Origin: Nevskia sp.
GTDB taxonomy: Bacteria > Pseudomonadota > Gammaproteobacteria > Nevskiales > Nevskiaceae
DNA: 51,499 bases
NCBI RefSeq assembly: GCF_023266035.1
Contig: NZ_JAHFRY010000012.1
Span: 1 to 51,499, forward strand
Direction: 5' to 3'
Shown: positions 27,651 through 46,822 of the stretch, piece after piece
Layout: the number at the start of each line of letters is the position of its first letter
How positions within the stretch are numbered: position 1 is the stretch's first letter
Made by a program: the position numbers and the translations under genes
Notes under the pieces: generated by a model
What the model was told of the DNA's origin: nothing
The model's input: the letters and a program-made list of their open reading frames with translations, nothing else
Database searches by the model: none

Positions 27651-29108
<1,458 letters not shown>

Positions 29109-29112
29109 TGAA

Positions 29113-29197
29113 GCAGTGGTCAGTGGCTGGTGGCCAGTGGCCAGTTGAAACAGCCGCTGCTTTTACTAGCCACTGATCACGAGCCACTGAGCACTGC
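29113..29197 (+). repeat. Palindromic repeat between atpD and atpC
   Basis: The left part holds two near-tandem GTGG(T/C)CAGTGGC units (29116-29144); the right part holds their inverted copies. GTGGTCAGTGGCT (29116-29128) can pair with AGCCACTGATCAC (29168-29180; one G-U pair) or, as GCAGTGGTCAGTGGCT (29113-29128), with AGCCACTGAGCACTGC (29182-29197; one mismatch). The second option ends 2 nt before the atpC ATG. It looks like an inserted dispersed repeat, and no other copy was noticed in the window. Confidence 0.75.
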
Positions 29198-29199
29198 AT

Positions 29200-29619
29200 A
29201 TGGCAACCATTGAAATCGACATCGTTTCCGCCGAAGGCCAGATCCACCACGGTCAGGCATCGATGGTGTTCGCCCCGGCAGAAATGGGCGAAGTCGGCAT
29301 TGCGCCGCGTCATGCACCCCTGCTGACCCGTCTGAAGCCGGGCGCAGTGCGTGTCAAGCAAGCCGACGGCAGCGAGCAGGCGTTCTTCGTCGGCGGCGGC
29401 ATTCTCGAAGTGCAGCCGCACCTCGTGACCGTGCTCGCCGATACCGCCATCCGTGCCAAGGACTGCGACGAAGCGCTGGCAACTGAAGCGAAGCGTCGTG
29501 CCGAAGAAAAGCTGTCGAACGCCAAGAGCGATGTCGATCTGGCGAAAGCCCAGGCCGAGCTGATTCAGGCTGTCGCGCTTGCCGATTTCCTGACCAAGAT
29601 CAAGAAGTCGACGCACTGA
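29200..29619 (+). CDS. atpC: ATP synthase F1 subunit epsilon
   Basis: A 139-residue rotor-base and inhibitory subunit. The N-terminal beta-sandwich begins [19 protein letters not shown]; a C-terminal two-helix arm (about 90-137, [10 protein letters not shown]) is present and could block ATP hydrolysis. No Shine-Dalgarno is visible: the 20 nt before the ATG are the right arm of a palindromic repeat, so initiation may depend on its folding or on ribosomes arriving from atpD. It is the last gene of the operon. Confidence 0.95.
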
Positions 29620-34811: not shown

Positions 34812-34853
34812 CCGCGAATTAGAACGTTTTTCGGCTGATGGGATTGATAAATT

Positions 34854-35007
34854 CCGTCATGCCCGCGCAGGCGGGTATCCAGTTCTGAGGTGGCGCGCTG
34901 AGGCCAAAACTGGATTGTTGAGCGCATCCCTGCGCTCAACCTGCTTGCGCAGGCTTACGCTCCGATTCGCTCCCGGCGAATCGGTCCCGCCTGCGCGGGA
35001 ATGACGG
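34854..35007. repeat. 154-bp multi-hairpin repeat with 22-bp inverted ends
   Basis: The ends are inverted copies: 34854-34875 and 34986-35007 match over 22 bp with one mismatch, with the core GCGCAGGCGGG. Inside lie three clean hairpins: GTTGAGCGCA/TGCGCTCAAC (34917-34940), CCTGC/GCAGG (34940-34953) and CCGATTCGC/GCGAATCGG (34962-34984). It encodes nothing. The ends resemble palindromes commonly dispersed in proteobacterial genomes. It sits 16 bp downstream of the pilE stop and may also act as a 3' stabiliser or terminator. Confidence 0.8.
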
Positions 35008-35023
35008 ATGGCGTGGGGCGGGG

Positions 35024-46755: not shown

Positions 46756-46822
46756 GTAGGGCGGCCCTTGGCCGCCGACGCGGTGAATCGTCGAAAGCGG
46801 CGGCGGGCATGGCCCGCCCTAC
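46756..46822. repeat. Inverted repeat overlapping the gshB stop codon
   Basis: GTAGGGCGG at 46756-46764 and CCGCCCTAC at 46814-46822 are perfect inverted copies bracketing 49 bp, with further GGCC-rich pairing inside. The right end contains the TAG of gshB (46819-46821 on the minus strand). Such GTAGGGCGG-type ends are common in dispersed palindromes of proteobacteria. Confidence 0.65.

Follow-up and report, generated by a model that had tools for sequence, protein, structure and literature searches.

ATP synthase genes and the palindrome between them

The window, as we call the whole 51.5-kb stretch of DNA analysed, comes from the genome of a Nevskia sp. (G000; other G numbers denote relatives or other compared genomes, and L numbers denote loci). 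The genes for the beta and epsilon subunits of ATP synthase follow one another in it, separated by a gap of 91 nt that is filled by a palindrome. The features of the locus are these:

27699..29108, + strand: atpD (ATP synthase beta), an ORF with Pfam ATP-synt_ab and two more ATP synthase domains
29106-29108, + strand: TGA stop codon of the atpD ORF
29113..29154, + strand: left arm of the palindrome, GCAGTG and then heptads CAGTGGY/NNGTGGY (arm by inverted-repeat scan, units by reading)
29116..29127, + strand: left unit 1, GTGGTCAGTGGC (from the sequence)
29130..29141, + strand: left unit 2, GTGGCCAGTGGC (from the sequence)
29142..29168, + strand: apical part of the hairpin, CAGTTGAAACAGCCGCTGCTTTTACTA (from the sequence and the fold)
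29156..29197, + strand: right arm of the palindrome (inverted-repeat scan)
29169..29180, + strand: right (inverted) unit, GCCACTGATCAC (from the sequence)
29183..29194, + strand: right (inverted) unit, GCCACTGAGCAC, which includes a GAG (from the sequence)
29189..29191, + strand: this weak Shine-Dalgarno-like GAG, with an 8-nt spacer to the atpC ATG (same position class of GAG in relatives)
29200..29619, + strand: atpC (ATP synthase epsilon), with Pfam ATP-synt_DE_N and ATP-synt_DE, its ATG at 29200

The arms are 42 nt each, 81% complementary and 1 nt apart, and among inverted repeats with arm distances of up to 120 nt theirs is the longest in the window; the flanks read TGATGAA and ATATGG. 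Four nucleotides separate the atpD stop from the stem, whose last base, 29197, lies 2 nt short of the atpC ATG. The initial annotation had noted a palindromic repeat here, with two units and two inverted copies and with a fold ending 2 nt before atpC, and on all these points it was accurate. It had gone on to propose that the left arm can pair with either of two right arms. Both registers can indeed be drawn, the inner one (29116-29131 with 29165-29180; 16 nt, 88%) even forming a separate row in the inverted-repeat list, but this is because the arms are periodic at 7 nt, and the two are far from equal in energy. When the folding energies were compared, as the annotation had recommended, the full hairpin pairing both left with both right units was the best fold at -56.7 kcal/mol, and forcing the outer left arm onto the inner right arm gave -43.3 kcal/mol, which is 13.4 kcal/mol costlier. 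On these modelled energies a single fold dominates over the alternative register. Folding a 141-nt segment gave -63.1 kcal/mol where shuffled versions averaged -39.5 (z -6.06), far more stable than chance would give, and no shuffle out of 200 did as well. Rfam returned no family at gathering score for the element, only sub-threshold microRNA matches. A scan for intrinsic terminators found no match at 29113-29200, and no T run follows the stem.

How accessible would the atpC start be? The mean predicted unpaired probability of the region -20..+15 is 0.28 (0.34 in a shorter segment), as against 0.47, 0.56 and 0.44 for the same region in G002, G010 and G008, relatives without the element, so the suggestion that the atpC start is buried stands as a prediction. 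The remark that no Shine-Dalgarno is seen was right in that GGAG, GAGG, AGGA and AAGG are all missing before the atpC start in this gap, but it overlooked the weak GAG in the right arm. A GAG at 6-8 nt before the atpC ATG is also present in the seven atpC-nearest relatives (G002, G010, G008, G016, G011, G005 and G014). In the fold model this GAG is unpaired with probability 0.33 when the RNA is free and 0.82 when 29106-29123 is held open, as a ribosome might hold it, and the accessibility of -15..+10 rises from 0.35 to 0.67. The modelled opening is non-monotonic, blocks shorter or longer than that to 29123 opening the GAG less (from 29106 to 29118, 0.30; to 29120, 0.58; to 29126, 0.58; to 29130, 0.42).

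A dispersed family of heptad palindromes

A BLAST search of the Nevskia genome (4.5 Mb in 243 contigs) with the element, the copy count that had been called for, gave 55 matches at E<=1, which merge into 35 places, 27 of these places at E<=0.01. Since the element is a palindrome, the better places are hit on both strands. The initial annotation had taken hundreds of copies elsewhere, with no conservation at atpC, as what would count against its switch; the copies number in the tens, not the hundreds, and the lack of conservation at atpC was borne out. The arms are runs of heptads with the consensus CAGTGGY, each arm holding some 4-5 degenerate copies (CAGTGGY; NNGTGGY), and many copies of the element have common ends, GAAGCAGTGG...CCACTGCTTC, with NNGTGGY heptad arms and a variable apex.

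Twenty loci of the Nevskia genome were examined and 16 tabulated; L002, L013, L020 and L024 were left out since their flanking ORFs are absent on one side or overlap the element. The copies tabulated are all in spacers, 13 between co-directional genes, three between convergent genes and none between divergent ones, the placement of convergent inverted pairs that are intergenic and rare between divergent ORFs. Most of them span the entire spacer, from a stop to the next start or between convergent stops: in 13 of the 16 no more than 7 nt separate the element from the flanking ORF end on either side (for L006 the shorter minus-strand left ORF was taken, on GC3). The exceptions are L019 (18 nt on the left), L015 (where the right ORF ends within the element) and L018, whose right edge is unsettled, 1590 being our choice and a called minus-strand ORF entering the element to 1558. 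A 4-nt Shine-Dalgarno match (GGAG/GAGG/AGGA/AAGG) is absent from the 22 nt before the start in all 13 co-directional copies, and in 12 of these the CACTGC of the element lies within the same distance of the start codon.

Are the two arms of a copy matched to each other? Across the 16 copies in this genome a left arm scores 16.5 against its own right arm and 18.0 against those of the other copies (p 0.95 by permutation). That the arms do not co-vary makes selection for exact pairing less likely and suggests that both are drawn from one pool of units. The copies orthologous between G000 and G015 (L004/L060, L012/L265, L018/L078, L019/L075 and L028/L287) have different unit variants, and indels close to the apex.

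A strict form of the hairpin pattern occurs in at least 115 stretches of a species-level genome collection, where by our own rough estimate random sequence of that size would give about 7. The matches listed come from Acidobacteriota, Planctomycetota, Chloroflexi, Clostridia, Deltaproteobacteria, Bacteroidetes, Elusimicrobia, Gemmatimonadetes, Nitrospirales, Omnitrophota, the cyanobacterium Trichormus and others, among them MAGs of many phyla. Among 398 Pseudomonadota genomes the strict pattern is found in one, the Nevskia genome itself, and a scrambled control is found in none, so this comparison says little. With crude ORF calls the 115 matches listed divide into 47 co-directional, 16 convergent, 15 divergent, 20 inside a long ORF and 17 at edges, and the placement rule of the Nevskia genome does not appear in these cross-phylum copies. 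In the same 115 the arms of one copy match each other better than those of other copies (12.6 vs 11.3, p 0.0002), which is what genome-specific unit variants would produce. Among the cross-phylum matches listed, 73% of 73 cores lie no more than 25 nt from a stop codon, compared with 40% simulated in 299 element-free spacers, a weak signal since stop triplets within the units can themselves end ORFs. One of the matches listed is a CAGTGGY heptad hairpin between atpD and atpC of an unrelated Methylococcaceae MAG (L166, SCQD01000133.1); it lies just after 4244 (atpD on the + strand), 2 nt past the atpD stop, and an AAGG precedes the atpC start. In the Methylococcaceae MAG (G062), contigs C252, C127, C245 and C312 have CAGTGGY-type matches at steps of about 21 nt, which suggests long direct heptad arrays.

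Spacers of related genomes

The presence of the element in the atpD-atpC gaps of relatives, which the initial annotation had proposed to look for, was not found: in 57 such gaps (our own and those of 56 relatives, up to order level) only our own has CAGTGGY, a comparison made without G001, G003, G022 and G015, which gave no atpC match and the last of which has several elements in common with G000. The atpD-atpC copy is thus lineage-restricted among the genomes compared. The two atpC-nearest relatives, G002 (atpC 99.3% identical) and G010 (98.6%), lack it. Their spacers, of 60 and 47 nt, align to each other by eye, and to the element only over a few bases before the ATG; the spacers of the nearest relatives in general are 41-60 nt long and quite different from the element.

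Other heptad arrays do occur in atp operons. A script for period-7 runs gave 7 of 50 atpA-atpG gaps, 1 of 51 atpG-atpD gaps, 3 of 57 atpD-atpC gaps and 2 of 47 atpH-atpA gaps, with CAGTGGY only in our own atpD-atpC gap. By eye, in gaps shorter than 400 nt and folding below -22 kcal/mol, heptad arrays lie in six atpA-atpG gaps, one atpG-atpD gap, two atpD-atpC gaps and no atpH-atpA gap, with L224 and L231 mostly one-armed; the additional script hits (L240, L222, L212 and L232) are weak or GC-rich. Such arrays are at least as frequent in atpA-atpG as in atpD-atpC, and the counts are too small for a difference between gaps. An element specific to atpC finds no support in the 57 atpD-atpC gaps. 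The atpA-atpG arrays, seen by eye and by script, have the units GGGAGGC (G012), GTGAGAC (G009), GTGAGGC (G020 and G031), GGGAATC (G040) and CAGTCAC (G019), and the atpD-atpC gap of G012 has a GGGAATC hairpin.

Two other kinds of folding spacer were seen in the same operon. In 11 genomes of one genus (g17; L241, L245-L247, L249 and L251-L256) the atpD-atpC spacers are 63-76 nt long, differ in sequence and fold at -23 to -34 kcal/mol; they may share a conserved structure. Palindromes with units of about 9 nt (CACAGATTT and ACACAAAG types) lie in the atpD-atpC gap L243 (G046), which the period scan described below also found, and in the atpG-atpD gaps L233 and L240; they are perhaps a sister class with period 9.

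Outside the atp operon the comparison with relatives is similar. The ABC transporter spacer L028, whose element is common to G015, is only 23 nt long in G002 and G010, and the enoyl-CoA hydratase spacer L016 is 23-27 nt long and unaligned in these two; at both loci the blastn alignments end at the spacer edges. The element-free spacers of relatives barely align, so there is no definable empty site at which a target-site duplication, the mark of a MITE, could be sought. In the spacer L012, between dnaB (identified by Pfam) and a gene taken from its sequence to be alr, inspection by eye found CAGTGGY hairpins in G000 and G015 and arrays of another heptad, CAGTTTC (TTTCCAG), in G016 (L268), G007 (L272) and G012 (L276), those of G016 and G012 being found by the period scan as well. 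An apparent remnant of the CAGTTTC array precedes the ATG in G002 and G010, and G014, G005 and G008 have no array by eye. The spacer L022 has other palindromes in G002, G010 and G016 (four of six relatives mapped).

The period scan covered 204 loci that had not been fetched by repeat (870 kb, overlaps kept). Of the 14 hairpins of period 7 that it returned, one is a poly-G artefact, four come from G000 loci that had been picked for their element, and L268 and L276 come from relatives at one such locus; period 9 gave two, periods 8, 10, 11 and 12 none, periods 5 and 6 only the artefact, and shuffled sequences none. At L366, positions 2590-2626, near the end of a contig, a poly-G run abuts a poly-C run, which is probably an assembly artefact.

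Origin and possible effect of the element

The closest known system is the GGGAATC heptad inverted repeats of Xanthomonas, described, with function unknown, by Rehm et al. 2015 together with the GGGGAYT heptads of Nostoc (PMC4692102). As characterized there, the Xanthomonas heptads form convergent inverted pairs (70 cases in Xcc and 75 in Xac), are placed no more than 50 bp from starts and stops, between aligned ORFs, and are under-represented between divergent ORFs, and the GGG tracts of GGGNATC units can form G-quadruplexes. The window palindrome is likewise built of tandem 7-nt units in convergent arms and set between aligned genes, and GGGAATC arrays themselves occur in its relatives, including the atp operon (G012 and G040, above). 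It differs in its unit, CAGTGGY, which has GG tracts only, and in that most tabulated copies fill the spacer. Since the unit is not GGGNATC and lacks GGG tracts, we place the element only in the wider kind of heptad inverted repeat. The turnover of units in orthologous spacers seen here does not seem to be part of that description. The TAACTGA heptads of Beggiatoaceae (MacGregor 2015, PMC4679880) are also described as 7-nt units directly upstream of start codons where canonical ribosome binding sites are rare; unlike the CAGTGGY palindrome they are nearly all direct repeats, with another unit and no hairpin arms. A literature search by the heptad letters found no bacterial repeat among the titles listed, and as far as our searches reach CAGTGGY palindromes seem undescribed.

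The best explanation, to which we give a probability of about 0.75, is that the atpD-atpC palindrome is one copy of a dispersed intergenic heptad palindrome, tolerated in the operon, with a local effect on atpC that is plausible. The initial annotation had allowed for a parasite repeat tolerated in the operon, and with some 35 places in the genome and no conservation at atpC this fits best. The element is dispersed, close relatives do not have it, and no alignable ancestral spacer is left. We infer that it is a newcomer at atpC and is merely tolerated there; it may instead have been lost in the relatives. If it is a newcomer it did not arrive by plain insertion, because the older atpD-atpC spacer is gone. 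Some observations sit uneasily with a tolerated dispersed copy: the CAGTGGY hairpin in L166 and the GGGAATC hairpin in G012 hint that the gap may be favoured beyond our small sample, near-exact filling of spacers is unlike simple random insertion, the modelled opening of the GAG goes up and down again (0.82 to 29123, 0.42 to 29130), and the strict pattern is in just 1 of 398 Pseudomonadota genomes.

What would the copy do to atpC? Transcribed into the atp mRNA, it would form one very stable predicted hairpin reaching from 4 nt after the atpD stop to 2 nt before the atpC start. Ribosome termination structures, stable mRNA structures right after a stop codon, are reported to reduce re-initiation in synthetic E. 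coli operons (Chemla et al. 2020, PMC7518266), and here a stem of -56.7 kcal/mol follows the stop after 4 nt; such structures are defined there by position and energy, and unlike the CAGTGGY element not as a sequence family. The hairpin could act as an insulator of this type, lowering independent starts at atpC, whose translation would then rely on ribosomes that reach the end of atpD and unwind the lower stem. Opening of the atpC start by a terminating ribosome would correspond to the RNA-unfolding mode of translational coupling reviewed in PMC12548453. We put such an insulating or coupling side effect, which need not have been selected, at perhaps even odds.

As a selected coupling or insulation device, the hairpin would leave just six unpaired nucleotides from stop to start, make atpC translation depend on ribosomes ending on atpD and hold epsilon below beta. 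The placing of the stem, 4 nt after the stop and 2 nt before the ATG, the modelled gain in accessibility with 29106-29123 open and the recurrence of gap hairpins in L166 and G012 agree with this, and RNA-unfolding coupling and ribosome termination structures are both published modes (PMC12548453, PMC7518266). But 56 of the 57 atpD-atpC gaps are without CAGTGGY, a comparable placing recurs at convergent pairs, which have no start after them (L004 and L016; L018 has an unsettled right end), the arms of the genomic copies do not co-vary, and accessibility drops again once the open block passes 29123. Moreover, ribosome termination structures are described as depleted both behind non-terminal operon genes and where the spacing is below 25 nt, and as enriched where it is 25 nt or more (PMC7518266). 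We regard a selected device as unlikely. The two-fold switch that the initial annotation suspected of tuning epsilon fares far worse: that both registers can be drawn is a by-product of the 7-nt periodicity, they lie 13 kcal/mol apart, the element is in one of 57 gaps with the two atpC-nearest relatives lacking it, arms are not matched within copies, and no Rfam family reaches gathering score. A bistable RNA switch setting epsilon is hardly credible and was rejected on the fold energies. A transcription terminator or attenuator within the operon could draw on the very stable GC-rich stem, but the scan had no match at 29113-29200 and the bases after the stem are not a T run but the atpC start, which makes it extremely improbable.

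Palindromes of this sort can stabilise upstream mRNA, as is known for REP in malE-malF. A REPIN-type element mobilised by a REP-associated tyrosine transposase (RAYT) would, like the palindrome here, have two inverted arms and a variable apex and be intergenic and dispersed, and G000 has one Y1_Tnp gene. However, G015, G002 and G010 each have one too, and G002 has no match to the element at E<=0.001. By motif listing (on which this result rests, the hairpin detector having missed known CAGTGGY controls), a single, isolated CAGTGGC lies within about 1.5 kb of Y1_Tnp in G000, whereas G015, G002 and G010 have no exact unit there, and no link to a RAYT was found. REP, BIME and REPIN elements with TnpA_REP are likewise dispersed intergenic palindromes (PMC8266576), but no GTAG tetranucleotide adjoins the window palindrome, and its arms, unlike theirs, are heptad-periodic. 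Such an origin is very unlikely.

How, then, do the arrays arise? Our guess is slippage and exchange of units within arrays, plus copying between loci. A tentative idea, to which we give well under even chances, is that spacers next to stop codons are rebuilt and not just invaded, the whole spacer being replaced by two inverted arrays of a heptad characteristic of the lineage; this would leave CAGTGGY, CAGTTTC or no array at one orthologous spacer in related species, with the same heptads recurring in distant phyla. The swapping of different units in orthologous spacers, the near-exact filling in most tabulated copies and the arms that do not co-vary constrain the origin of heptad arrays, and related genomes make these constraints testable. 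For ATP synthase, expression of the epsilon gene has to get past a strong predicted hairpin absent from near relatives, a natural experiment for the epsilon:beta ratio.

The window has two further palindromes. One, at 34853-35008, consists of TCCGTCATGCCCGCGCAGGCGGG and its inverse, 96% complementary and 110 nt apart, and looks like another dispersed element. The other, at 46756-46822, reads GTAGGGCGGCC.../...GGCCCGCCCTAC and is 85% complementary.
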